NCBI GenBank assembly: GCA_029204225.1
Contig: CM055101.1
Coordinates: 57,184,806 to 57,248,805 of the forward strand
DNA: 64,000 nucleotides
DNA from: Diphasiastrum complanatum
Taxonomy: Eukaryota; Streptophyta; Lycopodiopsida; Lycopodiales; Lycopodiaceae
Direction of reading: 5' to 3'
The notes under the pieces are model-generated. The model was not told the DNA's origin, searched no databases, and worked only from the letters and a program-made list of their open reading frames with translations. Positions 6,961 to 56,866 of this stretch are shown in pieces; position 1 is the first letter of the stretch, and each line of letters begins with the position of its first letter. A program made the translations under genes and the position numbers.

Positions 6961-7011
6961 CATTAGAGAAACTTAGAGGCCAAAGAGGGCCTTTGAAAAA
7001 GATGTTTTTTT
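6961..7011 (+). repeat. Left arm of ~50-bp inverted repeat around composite element
   Basis: These bases are repeated in inverted orientation at 11989-12039 with about 3 mismatches in 50. The two arms enclose the HU fragment and gene X (about 5 kb). The right arm is continuous with a copia gag remnant, so the arms may be gag-derived and not true transposon termini. Copy B has the pair at about 30750-30800 and 35789-35839. No flanking target duplication was seen. Confidence 0.7.
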
Positions 7012-7182: not shown

Positions 7183-8991
7183 TTTTTGGCCCAATTTTCT
7201 GAGGATACCTATCTTTTGGCAATGCATGGTAAGCATGTCACCATCATGCCAACAAATTTTCGTCATTCTCATAAGACTTCGGGATCGTTATTATGGTCTG
7301 CATGTGGATAACGCGAGCACCTCAAGAGACTTGCCTCTAAATGAAACAAACTTGCTGACTACTTCTAGGAGGAAAAAGAAGTAGCCTGAAACCAAAAAAG
7401 CTGGATTTCGAAGGCCAGGTGTTTCTCTTCTTCCTTGAGTTATCCCTGCCAAGAGACCTCGCATGAGCTCTGAATCAGATGCTGGAGAATTTGATTCAGA
7501 CCGAGAATCACTCTCTCCTCCTCGTGTTATTCGTCCAGCTCCTCAGAAGGTTTCTTCACCTAAAGTGATGAGTACCCAAGAGGAGCTCGACAAAATAATC
7601 GAGAAATCTGTAAATATTGTATCTACTTCTCTTTCTACTCCTGTACATAATCTTTTTGTCAGAATTCCATACGATCCTGCTCAAAAAAAATTTATTCTGA
7701 CCATTATAACCAGTACGAGGCTTACTTAGCTAATAAAATTGATCTTCTCGGCAATTATTTTGATTTCTTTCTTCCAGATTCACATAGAAGCTTTAGATTA
7801 GGTCCCAAATTTTGTGCCGAGCTTAAAGATAAAACACCAGAGACTACAGATGTAATAGTAGAAGCCGAAGGATGCTTTTTGTAGGATAGTATTAGTTCCG
7901 ATTCTCATGGTGTAGTTTTTGTTGTTAGTCCATCTTTTATGGGAGCGATGAAGGCAAAATAAGCCAATTTTATATCTCATCGAATGCAATCCAGTGTCAA
8001 AATTTTATTTGATTCCATATGAGAATAAGTAAGGATTGCTCGTTGAATTGTTGCTTTAATTTGGATTGTTGCAGCCGACATTGCTTTATTAAGTAAGGAT
8101 TTATTGATATTTGTATTTTGATTGTTGCAGTCGGCATTGGAGCCTGAACATTCTTTCTGTAAAGATAAATAAGGAGGGAGCATCAAATTTTCTATGTGTA
8201 AAAGTAAACTCAGTTGTAATACACATAGAGAATTTGATTTTCTACTTCATGATGTCGTGCGGAAAATACCGACAAAGGCGACTTCAATTGGAGAGATAAC
8301 CATAAAATCTCTCAAGGTATATTCTATTTATCTCTGATATGCATGTATTTTTTTTTAGTTTAAATCTATCATCATAGCATAAATAGATTTTTTATCATAA
8401 TATTACTAATTTTTGTTCAATATATGCAGTGTGTACAGCAAATGGACGCTGTCAGTTGTGCATAGTTCGTCCGGTATAATACAAAGTTTTTTTTTGAGTG
8501 GTATAATTTACAAGTGGATTTAGATATTGAAAAGATAATATTCTGTTCATTTGTAATTTTTTTCATTCTGATTCATATTTTTTTCCTATCATTGTTTGCA
8601 ATTTGCTGTATCACATGTTTTGTGATGACAATTCACTCTTGAGTTATATACTACTGACGATGTATATAGATTTTGGCAAGAATTGATCGGAACCTATGTA
8701 CAGAATGGTGTAAGCATTGCACCTGAAATCAAGGGCCCTCAAAAGCAAGCTGCTCCTACCTTAATAGCCTCTCAATTTTCTCAGGATGCAGATATTATTA
8801 TACATGATAAAAAAAGAATAGAAGTCCTTCCCAATACAGAGGAAGGCGATATTATAGCAGAGAGGCTTCTTGTCTTAAAAGGCCTAGAAGTCCTTCCCGA
8901 AATAGAGGAAGACGAGATTATAGAAGAAGAAACTGTTCCCTTATTAGTTCTTAATAGTGATACTAAATATATAGAAAAATTTACTGAATAG
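7183..8991 (+). pseudogene. HU pseudogene E1, copy A: H3 C-terminus, linker, Ulp1-like peptidase
   Basis: Decayed copy of the composite gene. 7183-7311 matches the histone H3 C-terminal half (FLAQFSEDT..., HGKHVTIMP). The H3 N-terminus is lost by a deletion that joins promoter sequence to alpha-2. A linker follows (about 7330-7680): basic, then Ser/Asp/Glu-rich (SSESDAGEFDSDRES). The Ulp1/C48-like domain comes next, with segments LLGNYFDFFLPD and VVFVVSP. After a GT-AG intron (GTAAGG at about 8029; acceptor at 8130) comes the catalytic-His motif RHWSL (His 8135-8137). After a second intron (about 8317-8429) comes CVQQMDAVSCA with the putative catalytic Cys at 8457-8459. An acidic tail follows (8683-8991). 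Defects include TAG at 7882, an 11-bp deletion near 7952, a TAA near 7948 and TAG at 8463. It cannot make the full protein. Confidence 0.72.
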
Positions 8992-9290: not shown

Positions 9291-11560
9291 TTACAATAGA
9301 TATAGAGATTGTATTAGAAAGTTTTGATTGAAACTATTCATAAAGAATCGAGTGTTTATAGTTACTTGCGAGTTTACCATTGAAAACGAATCTGAAGTAT
9401 GAAAATACATCATTTTGTAGGAGCTATAGTTCCTGCCTGATGTAATTTGGCACCAATCTTCTTCCACCTCAACGCATGTCAAAATGACATCATTGTATAT
9501 AATTTCATATTTTTTGGTTTTGAATATCCACTGGCTTCCAAGCCTTGATCGAGTGGCACCCATTTACCTTTATTTTTTTTTTCCAACTTTGATAATGGAA
9601 GCATAAGCTCAACATTTGTTTTTCAATTTGATAACGGAAGCAAATGGAAGACATTTTAATTCTGCATTCTATTTCTCCATCTAATCTTTTGTCCCATCCT
9701 TCATCCATAAGTTCAGATAATAATCTATCTGATAGGTTTTTGCATACAAACATTGTTGAGATTTTGTGTACATTGACACTTGAAAAGAAATCCACAAATA
9801 TATTCAAGAAAATAAACCAACCAATTTGACTGTTTTTGGTCCCGTGCTTATCTTTAATGAATTGTTTACATCATCATATATCTTGCAACAAAATGATTCT
9901 GAAACTGCAACATCTGGTGCAATCCATTCATCACTTTCAAGACTAGGTAATGGAATTGGGACTATTTGTCCAAAATTTTCTTTTGTATAAGGAATGTACA
10001 TTGATTCATAAAAAAAGATCCCACTATCAACTAGATCTTTTGTAGTTCTACCTCGATATTGCAGCTGTCCAATATCAGTGTGAATAACGTCTAACACTCC
10101 TGCTAGAGATCCACTAGGCTCCCATTCATTTATGTTGGATGGATATAAATCTACAAGAAGATAATGATTAGATTGGCAAGTTTGTTGGATTTATTTCCTT
10201 TACTCTCCTAAATCCCATTTTATCTGCCTCCATTCATGCTGCATGTTTACTCGCGTTGTTGCGAAGTCTACATATTAACATGCAAATTTTCACAGGCGAA
10301 GAAAAGACGAAAGAATCGCGGCACTATGTTTTTAGACGTGTTCTGGTGACAACCAACGTTCACCTCAGCAAAGGCTGACGTCGCACCCTTTTCAAGCTCA
10401 CCCCATGCAGCTGTGCTAACAGACTGGACAATGATTGCAGCCACCCACGATCTCCTACAGACAACACAGCTACCCTGTACTTTCTTCATCTGCACACCTG
10501 TAACAATATGTATATATACTGAATACCATTTGCGTATTCAATTTGATGATTGAAGATCAGAAGAGGAGAGTGTATGTAAATTAGCATCAGAAGCTTATAA
10601 GAGATATAGACGAAGTAGTTGTGCATTGATTCTTTATTGTTAGTATTAATGTTTCATTCCTTCACATATCGAAATAAGCTTCGTAGAGCATGCGATTTCG
10701 TTTGCTATTGTCTTGTGCTCTACCACATTCTTGACATGTATACTTGATATACTTAATCTGATAACAATGTTCAGATTTGTGTTAATATTGATATGCTTAC
10801 TATTCATTTTGTCTGACTTTTCTGATAGCTCATTTTGGTAATTTTGCTCATTTCTGATTGCACATTCACGACTAATTATCAGGCGAGCCCAGTCTAGCTC
10901 TTCGCAAATCATTTGCGACACATAATCTGTCTTGTTGTTCACGGTAACTTATTCTTCTCGTGCTTCATTCATTAATCTTTGGCTGCGTAATCAAGAATGA
11001 CCGTGATTTCCATCACTAACGTTCTGTTCGTTCTGATAGCTGTAGTCATGCTTACGGAGAGAGTCGTATAACTTGTTCCGCTGTGCGCGAACACTTTCTA
11101 TTCGTGTTTCATTTCTCGTTCGTGTTCGTCTTCCCTTTTGAGCTAATTTTCATTTCTCACACACGACACCCTCTTTTTTCTCTCTCTCTTAAATAAGTTT
11201 ACTATTAGATATTTAAGAATGACAAAAATCTAAATATCAAAAATATCAATACTCATAGTGAACCTGATGGTTAAATCCTTGCACATTTATCTCTGAATGC
11301 ATATATACATGTTGGACTAGAATTTCAGAAATAGATTTTCCAACTGATGATGTTCTGAAATCCAAAATTTTGGCCTTCCAATAAGATCGAAATGATAGTT
11401 TTGACCTTTTGCTTTTTCGAAATGCTCCTCTTGATGCTGGATGCATCAAAACCCAAGAGTTTTTTGAATATTTTCTTGGCACCCATAATTCATTATCATC
11501 TGTCTTGTTGAATAGAAGCACAGAGTCGATTGAGGAGCATGGCTTTCTTGATGGCGCCAT
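9291..11560 (-). pseudogene. Gene X of the composite element, unknown function (copy A)
   Basis: A series of minus-strand open segments runs convergent to HU. The first starts at ATG 11560 (MAPSRKPCSSID...), is about 105 codons long and is rich in Arg, Lys and Ser. Later segments lie at about 10942-10646 (charged), 10495-10268 (contains CVVCRRSW), 10097-9804 (contains GQIVPIPLPSLESDEW) and 9807-9505. They are separated by AT-rich stretches that could be introns. Evidence that this is a real gene: the first, third and fourth segments are recognisable in the diverged inverted copy C, where GQIVPIPLPS is kept. I recognise no family. It might encode a mobility function, but nothing shows this. 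Confidence 0.45.
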
Positions 11561-11988
11561 TCGTAATGTGCATGCAAAAATCTGAAACAATGAGCTATGA
11601 ATCTAAAAATTTGCGTAGACAAAAAGCCATGAATCTGAGAAAATGTGTTGGCTTAAATTTGAAACACTGATCTATTTGGCGCCACGAATTAACTCTGGTT
11701 AACCCTATTAATTATGATTTGACAATGCATATACATTAATGGTACATCGATTTTCTCATCTCAACCATCTGTCATATTCATTTTCAATATTTTTGGGTCT
11801 CTTCGGGTAGTGATGAGCTGGAAGGGCAGACCTCATCAATCAATAGCATTTTCACTTGTTGCCCGATGAAACAACAATATATTTTAAAAGTTTTTATTTT
11901 ATTTATGTTTGGAAAATTCTACATTACGTAGAACCCCGATTTCAACGTTTCAATTGTTCCACATGACAACGAAAATAAAATAAAAAAT

Positions 11989-12039
11989 GAAAAAACATCT
12001 TTTTCAAAGGCCCTCTTCGGGCCCTAAGTTTCTCTAATG
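11989..12039 (-). repeat. Right arm of ~50-bp inverted repeat
   Basis: Reverse complement of 6961-7011 (see there). It joins the copia gag scrap at 12024-12227 on its right. The same junction exists in copy B (35789-35839) and, in the opposite orientation, near 48040-48090 in copy C. Confidence 0.7.
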
Positions 12040-15055: not shown

Positions 15056-15435
15056 ATGATGGCTAGGACCAAATCTACTGCCCGTGTCATAACCATTGTA
15101 CAGCCATCCCATGCCTGTGTTCCCTCTGGTACTGGCCGTAGACGTGGTAGAAAGTAGGTCTGGCTGAGGGAGATAAGAGATCAACTGAACTGTTGATCCC
15201 TAGGGCTCCTTTCAGCCGATATATCAAGAATGTCACTCTGTCACTTGGACTAGATGTTCGTTTTGCCGTGACAGCCATGCAGGCCTTACAAGGTGCTATA
15301 GAAGACTTTTTGGCCCAGTTTTTTGAGGATACCTGTCTTTTGGGAATGCATGGTAAGCGTGTCACCATCATGCCAACAGATTCCCATCATTCTCAGAAGA
15401 CTTTGGGATCGTTATTCTGGTCTACATGTGGATAA
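15056..15435 (+). pseudogene. Divergent histone H3 (first part of HU), element E2, copy A
   Basis: Starts ATG-ATG at 15056/15059 and reads MARTKSTAR, against canonical H3 MARTKQTAR, keeping Thr3/Lys4. The rest of the tail is unlike H3. It then reads LREIR (alpha-N), and after a frameshift near 15188 LLIPRAPFSRY (alpha-1), LDVRF, ALQGAIEDFL (alpha-2), FEDTCLLGMHGKRVTIMP (loop 2 and alpha-3). From PF to ALQ the length equals canonical H3, with no extended loop 1 of the CenH3 type. Defects are TAG at 15155, TGA near 15189, a frameshift, and a second shift at the end of alpha-3, beyond which another frame resembles the H3 end (ILRRLWDRY) and runs on into the HU linker. Core-histone identity is clear. 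Whether it was once a fused H3-protease or a separate H3 is open. Confidence 0.85.
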
Positions 15436-16325
15436 CGCCAACACCTCTAGAGACTTGCCTCTGAATAGATCAAATTTGTCGACCACCTCTAGGAGGACAA
15501 AGAGACAGCCTGAAACCAAGAAAGTTGGATCTCGAAAGCCAGTTGTTTCTCTTCCTCCTTGAGTTATCCCTATGAAGAGACCTCGCATGAGGTTTGAATC
15601 AGATGTTGGAGAATCTGATTTAGACCAAGAATCTCTCTCTCCTCCTCATGTTATTCGTCCAGCTCCTCAGAAGGTTTCTTCACCAAAAGTGATGATTACC
15701 CAAGAGGAGCTCGACAAAATAACCGAGAAATCTGTAAATATTATATCTATTTCTCTTTCTGCTCCTGTATATAATCTTGTTGTCAAATTTCCATACGATC
15801 CCGCTCAAGTTTTTTTTTTATTTTGACCATTATAATCAGTACGAGGCCCACTTAGCTAATAAAATTGATCTTCTTGGCAATTATTTTGATTTCTTTCTTC
15901 CAGATTCACATAGAAGCTTTAGATTAGGCCCCAAATTTTGTGCCGAGCTTAAAGATAAAACACCAGAGATTACAGATGTAATAGTAAAAGCCGAAGGATG
16001 CTTTTTGTAGGATAGTATTAGTTCTGATTCTCATGGTGTAGTTTTTGTTGTTAGTCCATTTTTTATGGGAGCAATGAAGACAAAAGAAGCCAATTTTGAT
16101 AAGGCTGTATATCTCATCGAATGCAATCCAGTGGCAAAATATTTGATTCCATATGAGAATAAGTGAGTATTGCTCGTTTGTTTTTGTTGCTTTAATTTGG
16201 ATTGTTGCAGTCGGCATTGCTTTAATAAGTACGGATTTATTGATACTTGTATTTTGATTGTTGCAGTCGTCATTGGAGCCTGAACATTCTTTCTGTAAAG
16301 ATTCTATGTGTAAAAGTAAACTCAG
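15436..16325 (+). pseudogene. HU linker and truncated Ulp1-like domain, element E2, copy A
   Basis: Continues from the H3 part: a basic linker (TSRRTKRQPETKKVGSRK), a TGA, then MKRPRM and an acidic/Ser-Pro segment (about 15572-15800). A T-run frameshift follows, then the C48-like N-terminal half (LLGNYFDFFLPD; CAELKDKTPE; VVFVVSPFFMGAMKTKEANF). The intron donor here is GTGAGT. The His exon is present, but the copy ends near 16310-16325 inside a small foldback sequence, so the Cys exon is missing. Unlike E1 it has GAA where E1 has a TAA stop (MGAMKTKEANF). It does have TAG after GCFL. Confidence 0.7.
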
Positions 16326-16329
16326 TTGT

Positions 16330-16683
16330 ACTACCATCGAAACCATAAACAACATCCACAAGTAACAGTATCCACATAAAGCAAAGAGCTCACAAACCAA
16401 AAGCATCTTTATTACAAAGAGAAACTGTTCATATACAAGCGAAGGTCCCCTTTAGCATGGGGACGCCATGTGGCATAGACCTAATAAATGCATGAAATTC
16501 ACTATTGGTGTCTACGTGGCATTTTAGCCTATATATAGGTAAACTCCCCTTATTGACCCGAGACAAGCCCCCGGGATGGCTTTTCAACTAAAGCCTACCA
16601 AACTGAATCAGTACATAACAACTGTTAACTACACTAAAAGTCCAATCACAGTTGAGCTTACTAACTCTAACTCCCTCTCTCAA
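16330..16683 (-). mobile_element. LTR-like segment with polypurine tract (and ~40127-40480)
   Basis: After the truncated HU comes a stretch with a TATATATAGG motif. It ends beside a polypurine tract on the minus strand (TTGAGAGAGGGAG, complement of 16671-16683), followed by TTAGAGTTAG. This resembles a 3' LTR border of a minus-strand LTR retrotransposon. The outer end is not identified, so the call is tentative. Confidence 0.4.
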
Positions 16684-21873: not shown

Positions 21874-21943
21874 CATTACTAGATAGATGAGTCTGGCTCA
21901 CAAAATTCATCACACCATAGAACTGTAAATTTTTGGTTGGACA

Positions 21944-30183: not shown

Positions 30184-30317
<134 letters not shown>

Positions 30318-30972: not shown

Positions 30973-32792
30973 TTTTTGGCCCAGTTTTCTGAGGATACCT
31001 ATCTTTTGGCAATGCATGGTAAGCATGTCACCATCATGCCAACAAATTTTCGTCATTCTCATAAGACTTCGGGATCGTTATTATGGTCTGCATGTGGATA
31101 ACGCGAGCACCTCAAGAGACTTGCCTCTAAATGAAACAAACATGCTGACTACTTCTAGGAGGAAAAAGAAGTAGCCTGAAACCAAAAAAGCTGGATTTTG
31201 AAGGCCAGGTGTTTCTGTTCTTCCTTGAGTTATCCCTGCCAAGAGACCTCGCATGAGCTCTGAATCAGATGCTGGAGAATTTGATTCAGACCGAGAATCA
31301 CTCTCTCCTCCTCGTGTTATTCGTCCAGCTCCTCAAAAGGTTTCTTCACCTAAAGTGATGAGTACCCAAGAGGAGCTCGACAAAATAATCGAGAAATCTG
31401 TAAATATTGTATCTACTTCTCTTTCTACTCCTGTACATAATCTTTTTGTCAGAATTCCATACGATCCTGCTCAAATTTTTTTTATTCTGACCATTATAAC
31501 CAGTACGAGGCTTACTTAGCTAATAAAATTGATCTTCTCGGCAATTATTTTGATTTCTTTCTTCCAGATTCACATAGAAGCTTTAGATTAGGTCCCAAAT
31601 TTTGTGCCGAGCTTAAAGATAAAACACCAGAGACTACAGATGTAATAGTAGAAGCCGAAGGATGCTTTTTGCAGGATAGTATTAGTTCCGATTCTCATGG
31701 TGTAGTTTTTGTTGTTAGTCCATTTTTTATGGGAGCGATGAAGGCAAAATAAGCCAATTTTGAGAAGGCTGTATATCTCATCGAATGCAATCCAGTGTCA
31801 AAATTTTATTTGATTCCATATGAGAATAAGTAAGGATTGCTCGTTGAATTGTTGCTTTAATTTGGATTGTTGCAGCTGACATTGCTTTATTAAGTAAGGA
31901 TTTATTGATATTTGTATTTTGATTGTTGTAGTCGGCATTGGAGCCTGAACATTCTTTCTGTAAAGATAAATAAGGAGGGAGCATCAAATTTTCTATGTGT
32001 AAAAGTAAACTCAGTTGTAATACACATAGAGAATTTGATTTTCTACTTCATGATGTCGTGCGGAAAATACCGACAAAGGCGACTTCAATTGGAGAGATAA
32101 CCATAAAATCTCTCAAGGTATATTCTATTTATCTCTGATATGCATGTATTTTTTTTTAGTTTAAATCTATCATCATAGCATAAATAAATTTTTTATCATA
32201 ATATTACTAATTTTTGTTCAATATATGCAGTGTGTACAACAAATGGACGCTGTCAGTTGTGCATAGTTCGTTCGGTATAATACAAAGTTTTTTTTTGAGT
32301 GGTATAATTTACAAGTGGATTTAGATATTGAAAAGATAATATTCTGTTCATTTGTAATTTTTTTCATTCTGATTCATATTTTTTTCCTATCATTGTTTGC
32401 AATTTGCTGTATCACATGTTTTGTGATGACAATTCACTCTTGAGTTGTATACTACTGACGATGTATATAGATTTTGGCAAGAATTGATCGGAACCTATGT
32501 ACAGAATGGTGTAAGCATTGCACTTGAAATCAAGGGCCCTCAAAAGCAAGCTGCTCCTACCTTAATAGCCTCTCAATTTTCTCAGGATGCAGATATTATT
32601 ATACATGATAAAAAAAGAATAGAAGTCCTTCCCAATACAGAGGAAGGCGATATTATAGCAGAGAGGCTTCTTGTCTTAAAAGGCCTAGAAGTCCTTCCCG
32701 AAATAGAGGAAGACGAGATTATAGAAGAAGAAACTGTTCCCTTATTAGTTCTTAATAGTGATACTAAATATATAGAAAAATTTACTGAATAG
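30973..32792 (+). pseudogene. HU pseudogene E1, copy B
   Basis: Counterpart of 7183-8991. It is better preserved: the codon at 31672 is CAG (Gln), and the 11 bp missing in copy A are present, so the segment AVYLIECNPV leading to the His motif can be read. It still has a TAA after MGAMKAK, a T-run frameshift near 31478 and the TAG two codons after the putative catalytic Cys. The acidic tail (about 32445-32792) is open and rich in Glu, Ile and Asp, with a duplicated RIEVLPNTEE / LEVLPEIEE motif. The divergent promoter and H3 N-terminus are deleted here as in copy A. Confidence 0.72.
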
Positions 32793-38852: not shown

Positions 38853-39232
38853 ATGATGGCTAGGACCAAATCTACTGCCCGTGTCATAACCATTGTACAG
38901 CCATCCCATGCCTGTGTTCCCTCTGGTACTGGCCGTAGACGTGGTAGAAAGTAGGTCTGGCTGAGGGAGATAAGAGATCAACTGAACTGTTGATCCCTAG
39001 GGCTCCTTTCAGCCGATCTATCAAGAATGTCACTCTGTCACTTGGGCTAGATCTTCGTTTTGCCGTGACAGCCATGCAGGCCTTACAAGGTGCTATAGAA
39101 GACTTTTTGGCCCAATTTTTTGAGGATACCTGTCTTTTGGGAATGCATGGTAAGCGTGTCACCATCATGCCAACAGATTCCCATCATTCTCAGAAGACTT
39201 TGGGATCGTTATTCTGGTCTACATGTGGATAA
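38853..39232 (+). pseudogene. Divergent histone H3 (first part of HU), element E2, copy B
   Basis: Counterpart of 15056-15435 with the same tail, stops and frameshifts. Amino-acid differences from copy A include Tyr to Ser after FSR and Val to Leu before RF; the resulting LDLRF is closer to canonical H3 (TDLRF). Confidence 0.85.
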
Positions 39233-40122
39233 CGCCAACACCTCTAGAGACTTGCCTCTGAATAGAACAAACTTGTCGACCACCTCTAGGAGGACAAAGA
39301 GACAGCCTGAAACCAAGAAGGTTGGATCTCGAAAGCCAGTTGTTTCTCTTCCTCCTTGAGTTATCCCTATGAAGAGACCTCGCATGAGGTTTGAATCAGA
39401 TGTTGGAGAATCTGATTTAGACCAAGAATCTCTCTCTCCTCCTCATGTTATTCGTCCAGCTCCTCAGAAGGTTTCTTCACCAAAAGTGATGATTACCCAA
39501 GAGGAGCTCGACAAAATAACCGAGAAATCTGTAAATATTATATCTATTTCTCTTTCTGCTCCTGTATATAATCTTGTTGTCAAATTTCCATACGATCCCG
39601 CTCAAGTTTTTTTTTTATTTTGACCATTATAATCAGTACGAGGCCCACTTAGCTAATAAAATTGATCTTCTTGGCAATTATTTTGATTTCTTTCTTCCAG
39701 ATTCACATAGAAGCTTTAGATTAGGCCCCAAATTTTGTGCCGAGCTTAAAGATAAAACACCAGAGATTACAGATGTAATAGTAAAAGCCGAAGGATGCTT
39801 TTTGTAGGATAGTATTAGTTCTGATTCTCATGGTGTAGTTTTTGTTGTTAGTCCATTTTTTATGGGAGCAATGAAGACAAAAGAAGCCAATTTTGATAAG
39901 GCTGTATATCTCATCGAATGCAATCCAGTGGCAAAATATTTGATTCCATATGAGAATAAGTGAGGATTGCTCGTTTGTTTTTGTTGCTTTAATTTGGATT
40001 GTTGCAGTCGGCATTGCTTTAATAAGTACGGATTTATTGATATTTGTATTTTGATTGTTGTAGTCGTCATTGGAGCCTGAACATTCTTTCTGTAAAGATT
40101 CTATGTGTAAAAGTAAACTCAG
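39233..40122 (+). pseudogene. HU linker and truncated Ulp1-like domain, element E2, copy B
   Basis: Counterpart of 15436-16325. The donor reads GTGAGG and the second acceptor is TTGTAG instead of TTGCAG. It is truncated at the same point, so the truncation predates the segmental duplication. Confidence 0.7.
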
Positions 40123-43100
40123 TTGTACTACCATCGAAACCATAAACAACATCCACAAGTAACAGCATCCACATAAAGCAAAGAGCTCACAAAGCAAAAG
40201 CATCTTTAATACAAAGAGAAACTGTTCATATACAAGCGAAGGTCCCCTTTAGCATGGGGACGCCATGTGGCATAGACCTAATAAATGCATGAAATTCACT
40301 ATTGGTGTCTACGTGGCATTTTAGCCTATATATAGGTAAACTCCCCTTATTGACCCGAGACAAGCCCCCGGGCTGGCTTTTCAACTAAAGCCTACCAAAC
40401 TGAATCAGTACATAACAACTGTTAACTACACTAAAAGTCCAATCACAGTTGAGCTTACTAACTCTAACTCCCTCTCTCAAGCTCAAGTATGATTTAAGTA
40501 TCAAACTAACTGTACACTTATTACAGTATCACATTTGAAGCTTTCATAAATAAATTAAATCAAATCTAAGCTCAAATGTGATAAGAGTATTCGAATAAAA
40601 ATGTGTAGCCATGTCCTGGAGTGTCCATATTGATCATATGCAATTTTCTTGCTACCTGTACTCGACTCACACTCAAGTACACAGTCAAAGCACTTGACTT
40701 CACAAAGTATCAACCAAACACCATGCTCTCAACAAGAGTCTGCCACACTCTTAACTTGACTTATTCACCATCCAACTTGAAACACAAGTGGACCACGTGA
40801 GACACAAGACTCACACTGAGGAAACCTCACTGCCATCATGAGATTGTCATCCTCCACCTTACTAGGCTGACATCCTATCAAACGCTGACAAGACAACCTC
40901 ATAACGCTGATAACAATGAGCGACTATGGCTCAACTTGAGAAAATCTTACTTTCACTAAGATTATACCCTCACTAGAAAATCAACTAGTAGATATGTCAA
41001 CAAGTCACTGAGCATCAAATGAGTACTTTGCTTTTTTTTTCAGTAGTAACCAATTAAACTCCAACTTAGATCTACGTCTAGTCACAAAAGGCTCAGAGTC
41101 TAATGACAAAGTCACATGCAAGCAATCACATTCATGCAACCAACGCGAATGACAAACATATCAGCTGATGATCACTACTTGTTGAAGAAGATATCCTCCT
41201 GTACCATACACCTTTTTCATAGGTAGATCCACTACTACAATACCCATGCATCCATAGCTCCATGCACCTGCCCTGAGATATATTCGAATGCACCATGTAC
41301 CTCCCAGAGATACATCCATGTCCAAGTGTCCCATCCAAAACCATCCATTCCACTTTGCCTTGCCTTGCCAAGCTACATTCATCCTTCATGCACCAAGCAT
41401 ACATGTCCTCCAAAGACTTTGATTAATCTCGTACATCTCATGAGCTTTCTCCTATAGGTTACATGCTTTGATTAGCATTCACAAAGAATATGGATCATAT
41501 ATCAACTTGTACTCTTCACAAAAGAACAAGCTAGCAAGCTTTGACCTATAAGTCAAGTGGTCTCTCTTTCCATAGAATCCAAGTCACCATCAAGGCATTC
41601 TGATCATGAATTACTAAGTTCCATAGCACCACACATATCCTGCTTGTTGCTTCTTGTTACCAATTTTCCACTTTGGCTTATCCAGCTGACTTTACCATTG
41701 ACATCCTTCACCTTGTGACCGCCATCATTGCATTGTCGCCAATAATAAGCCAGTGTAAATGTCTCTCCAATTGTGACATTTCTTTGCAAAAGCATGTGAA
41801 GCAACCACAACCACCGAATCTGACAATGCCATTGTTGATTCTCACCTTGAGATGCCGCTCCAAGTGTCCCTGACCTTGGTAGGTTCTAACTTCCAAAAAG
41901 TTGAACTAGAAACCTCATGCCATTTTACCATATTCACTAGCATAACTTGGCATAATTCCCGGATCTCACCTATAATTGGTTTCCCTCTCTCAATTCTTGC
42001 CAATCAAGAGTTCCACGATGCCTCATTGCAACTTGATCGCATTTACTAGCTTTCTCCAATGCAATATTTCGCCCTTTCCGCTCTCCCTCACAATATCCTG
42101 TGCTTATGCTCGTCAAAACCGCTTGAGAACCGCTTTAGAGCTCCTTGGCTATAGGCACACGCCTTTTTCCTAGCCTGCTCCGTAGACTTTTAGCAAAAGA
42201 TTGGGCTTAATTTAGCACATAGGTCCAATTTGAATTTCAGGGTGAAGATTTTTAATGAAATATGAGCCTCATTTGCCCTTTAAATCTCTTCATGGCCCCT
42301 TCAAAGTTCATCTAATGGCTATATAGGATCTTGTGGCCCACATTGCTCATGATCATCACCGTGGATTCACCTCTTCATTGATCGGACGACTATCAGAGAT
42401 CTAGAGCACTGATCTTGAGCCCTGGGTCCGCGGGTCCCTTCAATACACTATGGGCCTCATTCCTGTGGGACGCGCAATACCTCTTGGGTCTCCTCTCTCC
42501 TTCTCTGTTCTCTTTGAAGCTTTCAAAGCTCCCTCAGCTATGGTTGTCTGCTTGCTGGAATCCAATCCATACGCTTCCCTCCTCCACGGCCAGTCATGGC
42601 CTCTTGGCTGCTAGATCGTCCTCCTATTGCATCCAATTTTGGATTTTTACAGCTCCCAAATTGATATTCAATAGCGCGAGATCCGTGGGTTCTTCCCATA
42701 ATACCCTAGCTGCATTGTTCCATCACAACTTCATAGATTGAATACTCTTGGATGGGAGCATGGCTGACCACGGCCACCTAGCCTCCTATTAGCAGTATTA
42801 GGGCACCCAGTTGTAAGTTTTTATAGAAGATCCATCATTTTTATGATGGCTTCATGGCTGAGCCTGGCTTCTTATGATGGCTTCATAGTTGAGCCTGGCT
42901 TCTTGTAGTCATCATCCTTGTACCAGGGTGCCCTACTGTACTTCTTATAGATCCAAAAACACCATCCTATAGAGAAAAATCCAAGCTTTTTGCTCTGTAA
43001 ACTCCGGTCTGCAAGGACTAGACTTTGTTGCATATATTTGGAACTCCCTTCCATTCAATTATTGAGAATCGAACCTCCACAGCTACCCCGGTTGTCCAGC

Positions 43101-43410
43101 AACCTATCCCAATTCTTGTTTGCAACAAATGGCTCCACAATTCACTAAGAATTGCCTCCGTTATGAGCACTTTTCCGTCAGCTGCCTCATAGCCTTGCTA
43201 TGAAATTTTCTTTTACTTTGATTCTATGAATTGGCTTTGTAGGTAGGTCGTCAAAAAATGGAAATTAATTTGTTGGAGTTATAATTGTGATTGTTTTTTC
43301 ATAACAACTCTTTTTGCCTAATGTTTAGTTCATTCAAAGGGCACAGTAAAAAAATCAAAAAGTTGATATTCCAATAGACTCATAATTTTATAAGCTCTAT
43401 TTTTTTGTAG

Positions 43411-45291: not shown

Positions 45292-45960
45292 ATGGCTTTG
45301 ACACCATTCTTCTTTGGTGGAGATCAAAGTATTTTTGATCCCTTGGATAGATTTTTTGAGCCTTCAGCTGACAGAATTCCTCTGTGGGACAATGCACCTT
45401 CTCGACGGTTCGCACAGGATGTGAGCGCCATTGCTAGTACTCGAGTTGATTGGGTCGAAACCCCGGAGGCTCACATTTTCAAGGCCGATCTACCAGGTGA
45501 TTCATTGTTCCTGATCTTAGCATACATCTCAAGGCTTTGTGCACACAATTTCGAATAATGTTCCTCAACCTGGCTTGTTGCCAGAAAATCTTCATACCCG
45601 TGCTCTCCTTATAGTAGTTCTTGTTCGTTTTCTCTGATTCATCTGATCTGTATTCTAAATCTATTGAATATGTCTTTGTTTTGGATTTCAGGGTTGAAAA
45701 AGGAAGAAGTAAAGGTTCAGGTGGAAGATGGACGCACGTTACAGATAAGCGGAGAACGCAAGAAAGAGGAGGTGGAGAAGACGGACAAGTGGCATCGGGT
45801 GGAGCGTACACAGGGCAGTTTCTTGCGACGCTTCCGGTTACCAGAGAATGCGAAATTGGAGGAAGTGAAGGCCAAGGTTGAGGACGGCGTCCTCACCGTC
45901 ACAGTTCCTAAAATTGAGAAACCCAAGTCCGAAGTGAAGGCCATAGAAATTTCTGGCTAA
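45292..45960 (+). CDS. Class I small heat-shock protein, two exons (HSP copy 3)
   Basis: Oriented opposite to copies 1 and 2. Exon 1 is 45292-45496, the intron is 45497-45691 (195 bp, GT-AG) and exon 2 is 45692-45960, giving 157 aa. The extra residue lies in the N-terminal arm ([11 protein letters not shown] against [10 protein letters not shown]). The alpha-crystallin domain holds [19 protein letters not shown] and GVLTVTVPK. The C-terminus is KAIEISG, the textbook class I ending. The intron position is identical to that of copies 1 and 2, so the three share an intron-containing ancestor. The frame is intact and the HSE-bearing promoter is good, so it is probably functional. Confidence 0.94.
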
Positions 45961-47849: not shown

Positions 47850-48052
47850 TGTTGGAAGTCAATGGTAGGCTTACCTCAACTAATTATTCATTGTGAAAAG
47901 TGAGGATAAAATCACTTTTTGAGATGAATGATGTTTTGGATATTCTTGTAGGTTTGGAGGAGAGGCCAACAACAGAACAAGATCAAACAAGGTATGACAA
48001 GAGGGCCAAAAGGGCTCTACACATGATAAAAATGAACATTAGAGAAACTTAG
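47850..48052 (+). pseudogene. Copia gag remnant in copy C
   Basis: Inverted counterpart of the gag scrap at 12024-12227, with a degraded primer site upstream (AGGTATCAGAGC at about 47230-47242) and a shortened LTR remnant before it. It contains an internal stop. It precedes gene X in the same orientation, as in copies A and B. Confidence 0.75.
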
Positions 48053-48830
48053 AGCCCGAAAATGGCCTTTGAAAAGGATGTTTTTTTATTTCATTTTTTA
48101 TTTTCGTTGTCATGTGGACCAATTGAAACGTTGAAATCGGGGTTCTATGTAACGTAGAATTTTTCAAATATAACTAAAATATATTTTTAAAATATATTGT
48201 TGTTTCATCGGGCAGCATGTGGAAATGCTATTGGTTGATGAGGTCTGCCCTTCCAGCTCATCACTACCTGAAGAGACCCAAAAATATTGAAAATGAATAT
48301 GACAGATGGTTGAGATGAGAAAATCGATGTACCATTGATGTATATGCATTGTCAAATCATGGTTAACAGGGTTAACCAGAGTTAATTCGTGGCGCCACAT
48401 AGATCAGTATTTCAAATTTACGCCAACACATTTTCTCAGATTCATGGCTTTTTGTCTACGCAAATTTTCAGATTCATAGTTCATTGTTTCAGATTTTTGC
48501 ATGTACATTACGAATGGCGCCATCAAGGAAGCCGTGCTCCTCAATCGACTTTGTGCTTCTATTTAACGAGACAGATGATAATGGATTATGGGTGCCAAGA
48601 AAATATTCAAAAAGCTCTTCGGTTTTGATGCATCCAGCATCAAGAGGAGCATTTCAAAAAAGCAAAAGGTCAAAACTATCATTTGGATCTTTTTGGAAGG
48701 CCAGAATTTTGGAGTTCACAACATCATCAAGAGGAAAATCTATTTTTGAAATTCTAGTCCAACATGTATGTATGCATTCAAAGATAAATGTGCATGGATT
48801 CAATCGTCAGGGTCACAAAAAAAACAATTA

Positions 48831-50930
48831 TGACTTAGGATTTGCTTTGCACAAGAACACAGATCATGCTACACAGTAACACAGACAGAAAACACTCTCC
48901 ACAGCAAGCTCACATAGCAACGGTATTTCTCAAAATGAAATTACACTGTACATATAGTTGTTCACTCAGGCAATCCATGCATGACCCAAGTTGTCGTTGG
49001 CGGGACGCGTGTCCCGTCGACTTGCCTCGTGGCGAGGCCAACTGTTCCTTATCCATTGATAGGACCCACAGTACAGTAACACAGTGATTCTACTTTAATT
49101 CTAACTCTCTCCCTTAAAGTAGAGTCTACTTTTTATACAATCATATACATACTTTTAAAGTGAACAAACTTTAAGTACAGAAAGCTTTGATCTAAACTTA
49201 TCAAACTTTTCTCCAGCAAGTGGCTTAGTGAAAATATCAGCTAGTTGTTCTTTTGTGCTACAATGAACAACATGAATTTCACGACTCAGCAGTCTCTCAC
49301 GTATAATGTGATACTGAATCTCAATGTGCTTATTTCTCGCATGGAACACTTGATTCTTGGCTAGTTGAATGCCACTCTGATTGTCGCTATGTAAAGTCGT
49401 GAGATTTTTCTGCTTCATGCCACCTTCTTCCAAGATTGTCTCAACCATAAAGATTCTTGTGCTACACTACACATTGCCTTATACTCTGCTTCTGTGGTGG
49501 AAAGAACAATTGTATTTTGCTTCTTACTAGACCAGGAAAAGCAACTACCACAAAACTAGAATACATACTCTGTGGTAGATCTACGATTATCATAGTCACC
49601 TCCCCAATCCGCATCCACATAGCCACACAACTTAGGTAAGCCATTATGCTTCCTTTAAATCAAGCCATACTCTGAAGTGCCTTTCACATAACGCAAAATG
49701 CATTTAGCTGTCTTCCAATGCATTTCCGTAGGTGCTGCCATAAACTGACTTACAATGCCAACAACATAGCATATATCTGGTCTAGTTGTGGTAAGGTAAA
49801 TCAAGCTCCCTACTAACTGTCTATACAGCGTGGCATCAAATGATTGTGACTCATCAAGCTTAGAAAGCTTTTTACCTGGTTCAATAGGAGTATTTACTGG
49901 TTTGCAATTCTGCAACCTAAACCTGTGCAGCAACTCTTTGACATACTTCACCTGTGTTAAACCCACTTCGTGTCCTTTTTGCCACACCTCTACTCCAAGG
50001 CAGTAATGCATCAGGCTGAGATCTGTCATCTCGAATTGTTCCATGAGGTCTTTCTTGATCATGTCTATCATCTCTTGATTATTTCCCGTAATAATCAAGT
50101 CATCAACATAAAGAGCAATCAAAGCAACCGTACCATCAAAGCATAAGACATATAGATTTGGATCAGAATGTGTTCTCACCATCCCCTTTGAATGAAAGTA
50201 GGCATCAATCCTGCTATACCACGCATGTGGTGCTTGTTTAAGACCATAAAGCGCTTTCTTCAAGCGACACACTTTATTTTCTTGTCCCTTTGCTACAAAG
50301 CGTAGATCTAGCACTTTCTACAATCGTACAATTCTTGCGCTTAGCTATACTGCTAGAACTTTGATGTTTCAATCCGTTCGTCAAATGGTATCCGATTGAA
50401 TGCACACTGACTGCAAACACCAAATAGCCTGCTTCAGAATTTCAAACTTCCATTTGCTGAGGTTCTGTTTCAGCCGACAACCCTTGTCTCTGCATCCTCA
50501 CACAGTCTCAAGCTCACCAAGCTTTTGTGTGCTAAACTCTCTGCATCAGTGTTTCTCCTTCCATTCAACCCACCGTAAACTCTGAACTCTCAGAAGACAC
50601 TTCTCCCGAAGATCTCTTCAACTACGATTTTGTACTGTGTACACTCCCTGTACGGCTCTGATACCAACTTAGAATTTGCTTTGTAGAGGAACACAAATCA
50701 TGCTATACAGTAACACAGACAGAAAACACTCTCCACAGCAAGCTCACATAGCAACTGTATTTCTCAAAATGAAATTACACTATACATATAGTTGTTCACT
50801 CAGGAAACCCATGCTGTCATTGGCGGGATGCGTGTCCCGTCTAGTTGCCTCGTGGCGACACCAACTGATCCTTATCCACTGATAGGACCCACAGTACAGT
50901 AACTCATTGATTCTACTTTAATTCTAACTC
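48831..50930 (-). mobile_element. Internally deleted Ty1/copia element with two LTRs
   Basis: LTR-like direct repeats of about 265-275 bp lie at 48833-49107 and 50667-50930. A perfect primer site (complement of 50655-50666) adjoins the right one, and a purine-rich tract (AAGGGAGAGAG, complement of about 49107-49117) adjoins the left one. The flanks match the two halves of gene X, which shows that it is an insertion. The target duplication is blurred (ATG on both sides). Only the end of Pol remains; gag, protease and integrase are missing. Confidence 0.82.
49155..50314 (-). pseudogene. Copia reverse transcriptase-RNase H fragment
   Basis: Open from 50314 to 49655. It includes KALYGLKQAPHAWYSRID, the RT catalytic motif ALYVDDLIITG, and the conserved GSLIYLTTTRPDICY and AAPTEMHWKTAKCILRYVKGT. 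The RNase H start is frameshifted (49654-49449). Its C-terminal half is readable at 49448-49155 with HSDNQSGIQLAKN, HARNKHIEIQYHIIRE and LADIFTKPL. It is part of the insertion at 48831-50930 and is non-functional. Confidence 0.92.
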
Positions 50931-52240: not shown

Positions 52241-54262
52241 CTATTCAGTGAATTTTTCTATATTTTCAGTATCACTATTAAGAACTGATAAGGGAACAGT
52301 TTCCTCTTTTATAATCTCGCCTTCCTCTATTTCGAGAAGGACTTCTATGTCTTTTAAGACAAGATGCCTCTCTACTATAATATTGCCTTCCTCTGTATTG
52401 GGAAGGACTTCTATTCATTTTTTAACATATATAATAATATCTGCATCCTGCGCAACCTGAGAGGCTTTTAAGGCAGGAGCAGCTTGCTTTTGAGGGCCCT
52501 TGATTTTAGGTGCAATGCTTATACATAGGTTTTGATCAATTATTGCCAAAATCTATATACATTGACAATAGTATAGGGCTCAAGAGTGAATTGTCATCAC
52601 AAAACACGTGAATAAGCAAATTGCAAACAATGATAGTAAAGAAATATGAATCAGAATGAAAGGAATTACAAATGAACAAAATATTACATTTTTAATATCT
52701 ACATCCACTTTTAAATTATACCACTCAAAAAAAACTTTGTATTATACATGACAAACTATGCACAACTGAAAGCGTCCATTTGTTGTACACACTGCATAAT
52801 TGAACAAAAACTAGTAATATTATGACAAAAAATTATGCTATGATGATAGATTTAAACTAAAAAAAAAATACATGCATATTAGAGATAAATAGAATATACC
52901 TTGAGAGATTTTATGGTTATCTCTCCAATTGAGGTTGCCGTTGTTGGTATTTTTCGAACGACATCATGAAGTAGAAAATCAAATTCTCTATGTGTATTAC
53001 AACTGAGTAAACTTTTACACATAGAAAATTTGATACTCCCTCCTTATTTATCTTTACAGAATGAATGTTCAGGCTCCAATGCCAACTGCAACAATCAAAA
53101 CACAAATATCGATAAATCCATACTTATTGAAGCAATGCCGACTGCAACAATCCAATTTAAAGCAAAAAAAACAAATGAGCCATCCTTACTTATTCTCATA
53201 TGGAATCAGATAAAATTTTTCCATTGGATTGCATTCGGTGAGATATACAGCCTTATCAAAATTGGCTTCTTTTGCCTTCATCGCTCTCATAAAAAATGGA
53301 CTAACAACAGAAACTACACCATGAGAATCAGAACTAATACTATCTTGCAAAAAGCATCATTCTGCTTCTACTATTACATTTGTAATCTCTGGTGTTTTAT
53401 CTTTAAGCTCAGCACAAAATTTGGGATCTAATCTATAGCTTCTATGTGAATCTGGAAGAAAGAAATCAAAATAATTGCTGAGAAGTTCAATTTATTAGCT
53501 AACTAAGCCTCGTACTGATTATAATGGTCAGAATACAAAAAACTTGAGCAGGATCGTATGGAATTCTAACGAAAATATTATGTACATGAGCAGAAAGAGA
53601 AGTAGATAGAATATTTACAGATTTCTCAGTTATTTTGTCGAGCTCCTCTTGGGTAATCATCACTTTTGGTGAAGAAACCTTCTGAGGAGTTGGACGAATC
53701 ACACAAGGAGGAGAGGGTGATTCTCGGTTTGAATCAGATTCTCCAACATGTGATTCAGAGCTCATGTGAGGTCTCTTGGCAGAGATAACTCAAGGAAGAA
53801 AAAAAACGGCTGGCCTTCGAAATCCAGCTTTTTTGGTTTCAGGCTACCTCTTTTTCCTCCTAGAGGTAGTCAACAAGTTTGTTCTATTCAGAGGCAAGTC
53901 TTTGGAGGTGCTGGTGTTATCCACATGCATACCATAATAACGATCCCGAAGTCTTCTGAGAATGACGGAAATCTGTTGGCATGATGGTGACACGCTTACC
54001 ATGCCTTGCCAAAAGACAAGTATCCTCAAAAAACTGGGCCAAAAAGTCTTCTATAGCACCCTGTAAGGCCTGCATGGTTGAGATCGATACCAGAACTGAA
54101 TATTGGTTTCGAGCGCAAGATAGATAGAGAATATGTGCAGAAAAGAGAATTGCGCTCGAAAGCGATATTGGAATCACAGCAGTATTGGTCTCGGGCGCAC
54201 GGTGGTGAGGTGAAATATTTTGCCAAAAGAGAGCACGCTTGAGAGCGATATTGGGAGCGAAA
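52241..54262 (-). pseudogene. HU pseudogene, copy C: leader, H3 C-terminus, linker, Ulp1-like peptidase, tail
   Basis: On the minus strand: hairpin-repeat leader (54262 to about 54080), then a junction straight into H3 alpha-2 (MQALQGAIEDFLAQFFEDT, from 54075), through RHGKRVTIMP to 53917. An alternative frame through the H3 end reads VILRRLRDRYYG, like canonical H3 ARRIRGERA. The linker is at about 53900-53520 (SSESHVGESDSNRES) and the Ulp1-like domain follows. The intron and His exon are present, and the Cys exon near 52790-52750 reads CVQQMDAFSCA followed by TAG. The acidic tail (about 52460-52241) is broken. It is the most diverged copy yet keeps the same motif order. Confidence 0.72.
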
Positions 54263-54297
54263 ACCAAAAATTCTGCAAAAAAAATGAAAGTTGCAAG

Positions 54298-54580
54298 GGT
54301 GTATGTATAGGAAATTTTTGCACATGTGAAAAAAAGGGATGATGACATGTGTCAGCATCTAACTGGTCCACGTGGATTGTTCGTACTGATAATGATGACT
54401 CAATTATGAGGCCACGTGGGTCGGGACACGTGCACGAATCAGATTTTGACACGTGTCATTCTGCACGTGATAGATGTCAAATCAATCATTGTCTGTACCG
54501 CGAAATATTAATGACCAATCATACGGAGACACGTGTCCTTTTGAAACTCTTCTACACGTGCAAAGTTTTTTTATAAATAG
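54298..54580. promoter_or_regulatory. Bidirectional promoter with seven G-boxes (copy C)
   Basis: Seven perfect CACGTG boxes lie within 192 bp (54369, 54413, 54427, 54450, 54464, 54530, 54555). They sit between an HU TATA-like box on the minus strand (about 54298-54312) and a Y TATA box on the plus strand (TTTATAAATAGG, about 54571-54582). Copies A and B keep only four and five, so copy C best shows the original design. Confidence 0.8.
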
Positions 54581-54599
54581 GTCATTTTTGACGTGGATT

Positions 54600-54860
54600 T
54601 TGACATAAATTTTGGATTTTTTATCCGGATATCGATTTCAAGCGCGCCTTTTCCACTGCCTACGTTCTGTTGACTATCTTGCGCCTGGAACCGATACCGC
54701 ATAGTCCAATATCGCATTCAAGCGCGTCTTACATCTTTTTTTTTTTTCTGATCTTTGTACGTGCGCTCAATACCCTATGTTCTTATATCTCTTTCGAGTG
54801 CACATTGCCTTGAGATTCTTGTCTGACCTACATTTTGTGCCTGAGAGCAATATTGGAAAT
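54600..54860 (+). repeat. Hairpin-repeat leader of gene Y (copy C)
   Basis: Three ~80-bp units. Left arms include GATATCGATTTCAAGCGC and CCAATATCGCATTCAAGCGC. Right arms include GCGCCTGGAACCGATACC and GTGCCTGAGAGCAATATTGG. They mirror the units on the HU side (about 54068-54262), so the promoter is flanked by inverted blocks of the same repeat. Confidence 0.7.
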
Positions 54861-54885
54861 TTCACATTTGTTCTTTTTGTTCCAA

Positions 54886-55684
54886 ATGTCTAATTTCGAT
54901 TCTAGTTATGGTTTTCAAGAATTTGGTATTAGTATTAATTTTTTGAGTATTTCAAATCCCTTCTTTCTCCTTTTCTTTTTATTCTTCCTTCTATTACTGA
55001 AGGTCCCGGTGTGGAAGCATTTTCTGAGATTTATCTCAGATTTAAGTCTCTGATCAATACTCCTTATTCAAATCTTGGAATAAGGACATGATTCATTATC
55101 AGGACCTGGTGGCACTTGACAAGCATAGCTATAAAGCTAAGCTTGACAGAATGTTCACCAAGTCACATAATGAATTCAAGTCTGTAGATGAGTGCCCAAT
55201 TCACGATATAAAATATAGATTTGTTGATTTTCAGAGATGCATTTGATTTTTTTTCTTTTGTTAAATATTTCTAATGATTCGGAAGCTGAGCCTTCCACTT
55301 CTAAAGTTGCTTCTTCCAGTGGTACAAAGTTCAAAAAGTCGAAGATTGTAGATATAGATACTTTTTTTTATTGATAAGAGCGTTAGTTTAGATGACTGTA
55401 CAAATTTTGATCCTACACAAAACAGTGCATCGTTTATTGGCCCTAGAACTCCCAACACCCTTTCTCCTTCTGATAAATGTCTTATCACATTCTCTACTTA
55501 TAATATAGATAATAATGCATTTTTGACATTATCAGATATATCAGATCTTTTTTATTTCACTGAAGCTGAGACTCTTTTCATTTTGAGCAAAGAGCTTGAT
55601 AAATTTTCAGATATAATTGATTTTGATGCCGATGATCTTCTCCCTGGTGTTGACGATGTACATAATGATGAGCTTTACTCATGA
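54886..55684 (+). pseudogene. Gene Y with acidic C-terminus (copy C)
   Basis: ATG at 54886 (MSNFDSSYGFQEFG). Frames are broken, but segments correspond to copies A/B (GPGVEAFSEIYLRF; DLVALDKHSYKAKLDRMF; SVDECPIHD). The C-terminal part exists only here: about 55265-55684, Ser/Thr-rich then strongly acidic (DIIDFDADDLLPGVDDVHND), ending at TGA 55682-55684. The original length would be near 250-270 aa. No known family. Acidic tails occur in histone chaperones and activators, but composition alone proves nothing. Confidence 0.5.
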
Positions 55685-56111
55685 AAAGATTCTAGCTACA
55701 ATAAGGTTCTAATTATTTTTATTTGTAAAATCTGATTGGCTTAGCTTCTATAAATCTGCCTATTGGCATTGCAACAGGTGAAATCACATGGATGCTTATG
55801 TGGCCATTGTGTCATGTTGCTTGAATCATGGAGTCGTAGGGAAAACCGAGACAAGTTTTCTTAAACCGATATCTTTAAAGACTCATTTTTTATACAAGCA
55901 AATAAACCTTTTTATGAGCAGAAGACTTTATTAAATGTAGGTTTTTTGAGGATAACTCAAAACAAAATAAGCTCACCAACTTGACAACATGCAATACCAA
56001 TGACATTATATGGTCCAATCTTTTCTACTACGTATTGCTTATAGCGATAGGATAAACCATAACCTTACCATATCAAGGCCTATGCCATTATGATTAGTAT
56101 ATATTGTATTG

Positions 56112-56848
56112 TTTTGAATTTCACACGTGTGGATTGTCCACTACATGTACTTGTGATCTCCTAAGGTGTGTAGATGCACCAAGATCAAGACTAGATTAAG
56201 ATTCAAGATCAATCTTAGATCCTATGGCAAAAACACACTACTACATGCATTCAATCACTTCCAACTCTCACTCACACGTGTGGGAAGTATTCAAAAAATA
56301 GTCTAAGTAAAAACAAGCTGCTCTCCTCGGGTAAAGAGAGAAAATGCATCATGAGCTCTCGGGTAGAGAGAGAAAGCTAGAAATCCAATAACTCACAAAA
56401 TCCATGAAATCACCAAATCAATTAGATTCAAAATGAGGAGTACAATGATACTAGTAGGTCCATGAGCTAGAACTATGCTTAACTATGATTGGACCATATT
56501 TTCTCACCTCTTGATCCTATTGGATCATTGATCCATGCACCTCTTAATTCTATTGGACTGTATTCAAGCACACCTCAATTTCCTATTGGACCTCACAAGG
56601 TTCCACCTCTAAATCCTATTGGACCTCTTGGAATTCATCAAACAAAAACTTTACACTTGTCTACACTCTAATTGGCACGTGTTTAGCCTCTTACGCTATT
56701 TTGGCTCAATAGTGGCATTACAAGTGGAAATGCATAATTTGCCATCTATGCCAAATTTATTCCTATCAACATCCTACACCTAGATGCTTGATGTAAAAAA
56801 CATAAGACCCCTATATCTAACATAGATAATCTTTTTCAATTCTTCACA
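56112..56848 (-). repeat. 3' LTR of the complete copia element
   Basis: 737 bp. It contains CACACGTGTGG motifs at one end and several spaced copies of CCTATTGGACC, which create a fortuitous small open frame (56489-56671). Differs from the 5' LTR at about 8 bases. Confidence 0.96.
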
Positions 56849-56866
56849 CTCCTCCTAAAAAATTAT

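Follow-up and report, generated by a model that had tools for sequence, protein, structure and literature searches.

Several plant transposons that encode an Ulp1 (C48) domain have been described. In the excerpts of the literature on which this comparison draws, Vandal elements carry VANC-type genes with an Ulp1 domain (PMC13317346), and Kaonashi (KIU)/VANC-type genes with this domain in Vandal/MULE elements hypomethylate related elements and act in anti-silencing (PMC13317346, PMC6117577; VANC: PMC5735166, PMC10398659). The same excerpts call the precise function of the Ulp1 domain in transposons unknown (PMC13317346), regard transposon ULPs as unlikely to act on SUMO (PMC6117577) and describe captured host fragments as frequent in plant transposable elements (PMC13317346). 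In Arabidopsis, the excerpts tie MOM1 and PIAL2, a SUMO-ligase-like protein, to silencing; given this link, a SUMO protease would be a plausible counter-weapon. LTR retrotransposon integrases with a chromodomain are a further case of a mobile element that uses a chromatin module.

Here we describe a transposon-like family of Diphasiastrum complanatum in which a histone H3 fold is fused to a C48-like domain. The window, i.e. the whole stretch of 64,000 nucleotides that was analysed, corresponds to C10:57184806-57248805 of the 1.74 Gb host genome and has a plant-like GC content of 0.379. The element resembles the Kaonashi genes as a plant transposon encoding an Ulp1/C48 domain, but it differs from Kaonashi/Vandal by the partner of this domain (here an H3 fold), by inverted ends starting CATTAGAG and by other ORF pieces of which none tested reaches the cut-off of a Pfam family. 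With the chromodomain integrases it has in common that a mobile element borrowed a chromatin module; whereas the chromodomain reads histone marks, the H3-C48 module is a histone itself. Transposons with an Ulp1 domain are thus already known, but no fusion to H3 was met in the protein database, within the query lengths given below, or in the open-licence PMC papers searched. For a histone-transposon fusion, the excerpts of that literature yielded no paper, or seemingly unrelated ones. The protein database (5.8 billion proteins), searched with the reading of window copy B2, gave 37 proteins which were H3-type relatives only, with no fusion among lengths of 0.55 to 1.75 times that of the decayed 384-aa query.

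Copies of the Fused Gene in the Window

An earlier note on this DNA had described H3 joined to a linker and a C48-like domain at 54262-52241. This was confirmed for the minus-strand copy C, in which the H3 end, the ILRRLRDRY joint, the linker, the FF block, HWSL and CVQQMDAFSCA are all present. Together with A1, A2, B1 and B2 on the plus strand, the window contains five H3-plus-peptidase copies (Table 1), all of which were found by tblastn with a canonical H3 query (best E 6e-17, weakest 5e-4). The statement that H3, linker and C48-like domain follow each other in every copy held for the linker and the N-terminal half of C48, but not for the Cys motif: A2 and B2 stop after the His exon, and the Cys exon is absent. 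Likewise, the H3 fold is present in copy C, but only its second half; A1, B1 and C are all without the first half of H3, and near-complete H3 is found in A2 (15059 on) and B2 (38856 on). The His motif had been given as RHWSL; HWSL is indeed there, but copy C reads WHWSL. Its FF block reads VVSVVSPFF.

Positions 1-19355 of the window are repeated at 23759-43152 with 98.9% identity, so that A and B represent one duplication. An inverted third set of matches, with identities mostly of 86-91%, occupies 55305-47111. Two lesions are common to all five copies, namely the frameshift after IMP and the TGA in the linker, and a TAG in the Cys exon is common to all three that have this exon (A1, B1 and C). 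The five copies look like descendants of one already damaged copy; they are decayed and dead. Because of the shared lesions and the A/B duplication, the window copies are not independent of each other and amount to little more than one observation; independent evidence for the fusion is provided by copies elsewhere in the host genome.

Further sequences were observed in the window. A copia-like element at 56114-62345 (minus strand), upstream of copy C, has 735-bp LTRs that are 99.0% identical and large pol ORFs, as in a young insertion. An LTR-type insertion at 48833-50930, with 275-bp ends of 88.7% identity and a copia RT fragment, splits the D region of copy C. Pieces resembling Hsp20 (small heat-shock protein, named by eye) at 1548-1940, 25306-25698 and 45559-45960 were duplicated along with the transposon copies. 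Arrays of an 80-84-bp tandem repeat with a GATATCGG core occupy 21803-23706 and appear by eye similar to repeats upstream of the H3 gene (54100-54900).

Table 1. Positions in the window of the H3-C48 copies and of associated parts of the element
Feature	Position	Strand	Basis or equivalents
Inverted terminal end CATTAGAGAAACTTAGAG.., left of A1	6961..6999	+	B equivalent 30750-30788
Inverted terminal end, right of A1	12001..12039	-	B: 35801-35839; C: 48037-48075 on +
Opposite-strand ORF pieces (D gene, MAPSRKPCSSID.. and others)	9804..11602	-	ORFs; homologous region in L034
Copy A1: H3 end, linker, C48 N-half (small deletion), His exon, Cys exon, tail	7183..8991	+	tblastn, alignment
Copy A2: near-complete H3 (MARTKSTAR.., E 1e-16), linker, C48 N-half, His-exon start; Cys exon lost	15059..16334	+	tblastn, alignment
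Copy B1: duplicate of A1 without A1's small deletion	30973..32792	+	tblastn, alignment
Copy B2: duplicate of A2; H3 tblastn E 6e-17, Pfam Histone E 7.3e-21	38856..40131	+	tblastn, Pfam
Copy C: H3 fold, second half (helix 2 to helix 3), then frameshift after IMP into ILRRLRDRY frame	53944..54081	-	tblastn 23/46 identical (50%), E 1e-8
Copy C: basic linker (RRKKR), TGA, acidic/serine linker (SSES..GESDS) up to C48 block	53530..53943	-	three-frame reading, alignment
Copy C: C48-like N-half (DHYNQYE..VVSPFF..LIPYEN), exon 1 end, then donor GTAAGG	53190..53529	-	frame reading
Copy C: exon 2, catalytic His motif (WHWSLN..), one small frameshift, then donor GTATATTC	52900..53085	-	boundaries from L034 gene model
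Copy C: exon 3, Gln-Cys motif CVQQMDAFSCA, TAG after SCA	52688..52791	-	frame reading
Copy C: exon 4 (FTLEPYT..VYRFWQ) and acidic tail ..EKFTE stop; acceptor AA	52241..52590	-	frame reading
Copy C: divergent gene (U gene) pieces, upstream of H3	54796..55691	+	homologous to L034 29-1637

The H3-C48 Reading Frame in the Host Genome

Searching the host genome with the 114-aa C48 exon piece (150 of 4267 candidates scored) gave 150 matches, hence at least 150 places, and the H3 piece (78 aa) was likewise found at no fewer than 150 places (150 matches in 150 scored of 5646 candidates). A local segmental cluster around the window, C10:56.85-57.62 Mb, accounts for 17 of the 150 listed C48-exon matches. 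When the query was the C48 exon alone, an H3 match lay upstream on the same strand in 26 of 30 fetched loci; outside the C10 cluster this was the case in 11 of 15. Two loci (L026, L027) have kept only the ends of H3 and two (L031, L032) have no H3. At 19 places picked from both the H3 and the C48 lists, the spacing of H3 and C48 is near-constant.

A 372-aa exon was then used as query. The best 110 of 10452 candidates were scored and gave 112 matches, a set that favours places scoring highest with the fused query. With stops read through, and requiring that H3 starts at or before residue 37 and C48 ends at or beyond residue 316, H3, linker and the N-terminal half of C48 lie in one frame in 108 of these 112 matches; the remaining four rows are two places, each split in two. 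Ten of the 108 are stop-free, five of which cover residues 1-372. These five full-length places probably represent four loci, since there are near-identical pairs: C577 is a near-identical duplicate contig (99.7%) of a C8 place, and C10:22783764, which was dropped from the 35-copy set described below, is near-identical to C117. Natural stop-free frames of 427 aa (L034) and 394 aa (L035) run from MAR.KSTA.. via H3 and the linker to the N-terminal half of C48. The alternative ILRRL.DRY frame, which the earlier note had taken as the trace of one original fusion, proved to be the original frame: less decayed copies read ...IMPKDFxIL(R/K)RL.DR.. unshifted into the linker.

The DNA argues against separate H3 and C48 transcripts, given the single frame in nearly all matches and the upstream H3 in most loci. 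As the start of the C48 domain lies within the H3 exon, any protein carrying the complete peptidase would also have to include H3, unless translation starts internally. On this evidence the H3-C48 fusion is well supported; it is real and no accident of this locus.

In a gene model derived from DNA only, exon 1 of L034 spans 1727-2841, and the three introns after it measure 123, 114 and 97 bases, have GT-AG ends and are in phases 2, 0 and 0. Exon 2 carries RHWSLKILFVKINKEGVSNFLCVKLNSAANTHREFDSLLHDVV.. (His motif), exon 3 CVQQNDAFSCA.FVLYNTKLFFEWYN.. (Gln-Cys motif) and exon 4 FTLEPYTPDDVYRF.. (end of the domain). GT-AG introns, across which the earlier note had joined the His and Cys exons, are seen in L034, but both copy C and L004 (the locus of B1) have AA at the third acceptor. 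A separate EFD exon at exon 2 was considered and rejected; L034 shows one exon there.

The Histone Part

Pfam Histone matched the best window copy B2 (38856-39205, across the frameshift) with E 7.3e-21, and PF00125 matched the 372-aa exon with E 2.9e-23 over profile positions 7-116 of 122. The exon also passed the CENP-T histone-fold model (29.1 vs 28.1 bits cut-off), but H3 fits far better. Compared with the PDB, the best 60 of the 179 matches of the B2 reading are all H3. Identity of the H3 core is 55% at best (L021). K4 is kept in 33 of 34 copies. At position 9 none of 35 copies has K; Ala is found in 32 and Val in 3. The tail is about 33 residues long, and in L034 it contains no lysine from K4 to its end. 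Canonical H3 and CENH3 thus have the histone fold and the MARTK start in common with the transposon protein, which differs from them by its short tail, the lack of K9 and the continuation into linker and protease.

An origin from CENH3, an idea that came from LLIP and the start of the tail, was rejected on bit scores. L034 scored 85.5 bits to canonical H3 vs 62-70 to a set of three CENH3/CENP-A-type proteins and two grass proteins that are CENH3-like by eye (pairwise scores: Arabidopsis CENH3 68.6, P0031 63.5, P0033 62.4, P0025 70.1, P0027 68.9).

The Peptidase-Like Part

The profile Peptidase_C48 (PF02902, gathering cut-off 20.7 bits) was run on 11 readings, namely L034 and ten chosen from 34, including window copy C. 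This check, which had been suggested earlier, gave no match in the window-copy readings but succeeded in 8 of the 11 spliced copies (8 of 10 outside the window), five at E 1e-3 or better and three at 0.015-0.1. The match always covers the His-to-Cys segment, and PF02902 is the only family reported in those eight copies. Four are above the cut-off (L034 spliced, E 1.3e-4 and 22.3 bits; L028 22.7; L021 21.5; L025 21.1 bits) and four below it (L029 19.8, L035 15.6, L033 13.9, L038 12.9 bits); L034 when trimmed, with W replacing the stop, scored 19.7 bits, which is below the cut-off. Spliced readings of L015, L019 and copy C had no PF02902 match. Pfam and PDB sequence searches found no C48 in the window pieces and readings, and among PDB sequences L034 matched no C48 structure. 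A protein database search with a three-row C48 alignment gave no hit among 6331 candidates, and when the genome was scanned exon by exon with PF02902, 150 of 520 candidates being scored, three places were listed, none of them among those listed for this family.

The family was also compared as a 28-row profile, using hhalign, with 20 plant Ulp sequences (chosen from 74) plus SENP1/2. The score of 28.8 was reached by none of 300 column shuffles. With only the plant sequences as partner, the observed score was reached by 3 of 300 shuffles, and against SENP1/2 alone the comparison was not significant (P 0.15). Earlier hhalign runs with window rows were weak, with shuffles reaching the score in 6/200 (SENP1/2), 9/200 (all) and 68/200 (plant set). 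In the hhalign alignment of the family, His, (Asn/Asp)-Ser and Gln-Cys lie in colinear order.

Residues were counted in 35 de-duplicated copies, one of which is window copy B2, with catalytic residues assigned by motif position. The catalytic His is present in 33/33 copies and the neighbouring Trp in 31/33, the second Gln (Gln438, oxyanion hole) in 33/33 and the Cys in 29/32. The catalytic Asp position is occupied by Asn in 30 of 33, Ile in two and Asp in one (L015); L020, outside this set, also has Asp. The domain has motifs of the same order and kind as the Ulp1/SENP SUMO proteases (PF02902, MEROPS C48), namely the FF block, HWSL, Gln-Gln...Cys and the FT.... end (by eye against SENP2), together with a weak profile match, but differs from them by Asn in place of Asp, high divergence and the fusion to H3. 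These comparisons support a divergent C48 domain (Ulp1-type fold) as the second part of the predicted protein.

Decay and Selection

A set of 35 copies was obtained from 64 aligned ones by dropping all but two C10-cluster copies, those with more than 500 gap letters and near-identical ones. The search for an intact copy proposed in the earlier note yielded the ten matches with a stop-free one-frame exon 1, but each of the 35 copies has at least one lesion, be it a stop, a partial-gap codon or a changed splice site. Changes of CAG to TAG (33), CGA to TGA (17) and TGG to TAG/TGA (10) make up 60 of 105 stops, a pattern that would be expected if methylated CHG and CG sites had been deaminated. In dispersed copies, stops recur at the same codons, again CAG, CGA and TGG (codons 15, 33, 57, 81, 162, 195, 320 and 446 of the L034-based alignment). 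As methylated CHG/CG sites seem to decay repeatedly, stops in common say little about common descent.

Given this sign of methylation decay, only transversions were used to assess selection, as the ratio of second-position to fourfold changes in the 35 copies. This ratio was 0.25 for the H3 core (95% CI 0.10-0.66), 0.27 for the part of C48 that lies in exon 1 (0.12-0.70), 0.47 for the linker (0.28-0.86) and 0.44 for the whole gene (0.31-0.64). By the same measure no selection signal was detected in exons 2 and 3 (0.77, CI 0.42-1.65) or in the H3 tail (0.92, CI 0.31-3.17); since the tail shows no selection, the loss of K9 may be drift. Codon-position tests were mixed in strength. On 14 copies they gave p values of 5e-4 for the C48 part, 0.11 for the H3 core, 0.16 for the linker and 0.34 for the tail; on 35 copies the values were 0.053, 0.037, 0.52 and 0.56, respectively, with 0.46 for exon 2 and 0.14 for exon 3. 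NG86 medians in pairs of 19 copies were 0.52 (H3), 0.58 (linker) and 0.33 (C48). Past purifying selection on the H3 core and the first half of C48 is thus indicated, and constraint on the fused gene is well supported.

The Carrying Element

Five terminal-end matches were found in the window vs 0 expected; they lie on both sides of A1 and of B1 and at the right end of C. The same tip occurs with different flanks at L034, L044, L067 and the pair L055/L059, which share a flank, and also at C1. In the C577 copy the ends are 9920 bases apart (element of about 9.9 kb) and the left end is an imperfect repeat. Between these ends lie, in order, plus-strand ORF pieces, a divergent gene, the H3-C48 gene and an opposite-strand gene. 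A NVSHGANSKYPCLYCM-type motif occurs in the upstream pieces on the plus strand (L036 2137-5302, L032 50-1528), which are perhaps the transposase. In L032 the upstream plus-strand piece is joined directly to the C48 exon, an arrangement read as a probable internal deletion of one element. Those of the other ORF pieces that were tested, all unspliced and including D pieces, the L034 U-gene ORF and upstream pieces, gave no Pfam family above cut-off, and thus neither MULE transposase nor VANC-type domains. A target-site duplication is visible neither at C577 nor at window copy A, and for the C1 copy the left end was not found. Copia-like sequence was observed on the right flanks of C577, C1:40426550 (by eye) and window A, and several copies seem to lie inside copia elements. 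The H3-C48 gene sits in an abundant TIR DNA-transposon-like family.

Discussion

In our preferred reading, to which we give a probability of about 0.5, the gene encodes a transposon-borne, chromatin-targeted Ulp1-type isopeptidase that would help the element to escape silencing; deSUMOylation, nucleosome entry and anti-silencing are put forward here as hypotheses. The fusion protein would enter or bind chromatin via its H3 fold, or pair with H4 through H3 chaperones, and the H3 would bring the isopeptidase onto the element's own chromatin. There it would take SUMO or a related modifier off silencing factors, allowing the element to be expressed. Without K9, the transposon H3 would in addition be unable to carry the silencing mark. 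A bolder version, in which a selfish element loads its own K9-less H3 with a built-in SUMO isopeptidase on its copies and erases SUMO-dependent silencing from within the nucleosome, is considered unlikely.

In other systems, Ulp1-like folds cleave further modifiers as well as polyproteins, and the element contains several other unplaced ORFs. The peptidase might accordingly serve the life cycle of the element, in protein maturation or in RUB/ubiquitin removal, with H3 serving only for import into the nucleus or for chromatin-guided insertion. As an import signal, however, a complete histone core under selection would be costly, and we regard this explanation as doubtful.

A different distribution of roles would make H3 the active part: a K9-less H3 would replace host H3 and block the H3K9me2/CHG-methylation loop, and the C48 domain would be dead or a SUMO reader. 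The prevalent Asn at the catalytic position and the missing K9 in all 35 copies speak for it, as does selection on the H3 core, which equals in strength that on the exon 1 part of C48, with none seen on exons 2 and 3. On the other hand, His, Gln and Cys are nearly always kept, which would be needless in a dead enzyme, papain uses Asn as its third catalytic residue, and the H3 tail is without selection of its own. This explanation seems improbable.

It is very unlikely that the C48 likeness is a convergent motif match and that the second domain has another fold. Such a match would agree with the lack of Pfam C48 or PDB matches for the window pieces, of a PDB C48 match for L034 and of significance with SENP1/2 alone, but not with PF02902 as the sole family in the eight matching copies, the 0/300 shuffles and the colinear hhalign alignment. 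Least credible, and already strained, is a functionless capture in which H3 and peptidase fragments were amplified passively: the frequency of captured host fragments in plant elements (in the excerpts of PMC13317346) and at least one lesion in every copy of the 35 checked would suit it, but a one-frame fusion in 108 of the 112 matches (from the best 110 of 10452 candidates) and constraint on the H3 core, the linker and the C48 part of exon 1 are unlike passive cargo.

For the chromatin-targeted isopeptidase, the weld to a histone points the Ulp1 domain at chromatin and offers a testable mechanism, i.e. to bind H4, enter chromatin and cut SUMO. If this is true, a core histone would have been recruited by a transposon into the arms race over silencing, and the combination of H3 and Ulp1 domain would offer for study a natural deSUMOylase targeted to chromatin. 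Even with a dead protease, an amplified H3 that never has K9 would be a natural experiment on H3K9-based silencing.
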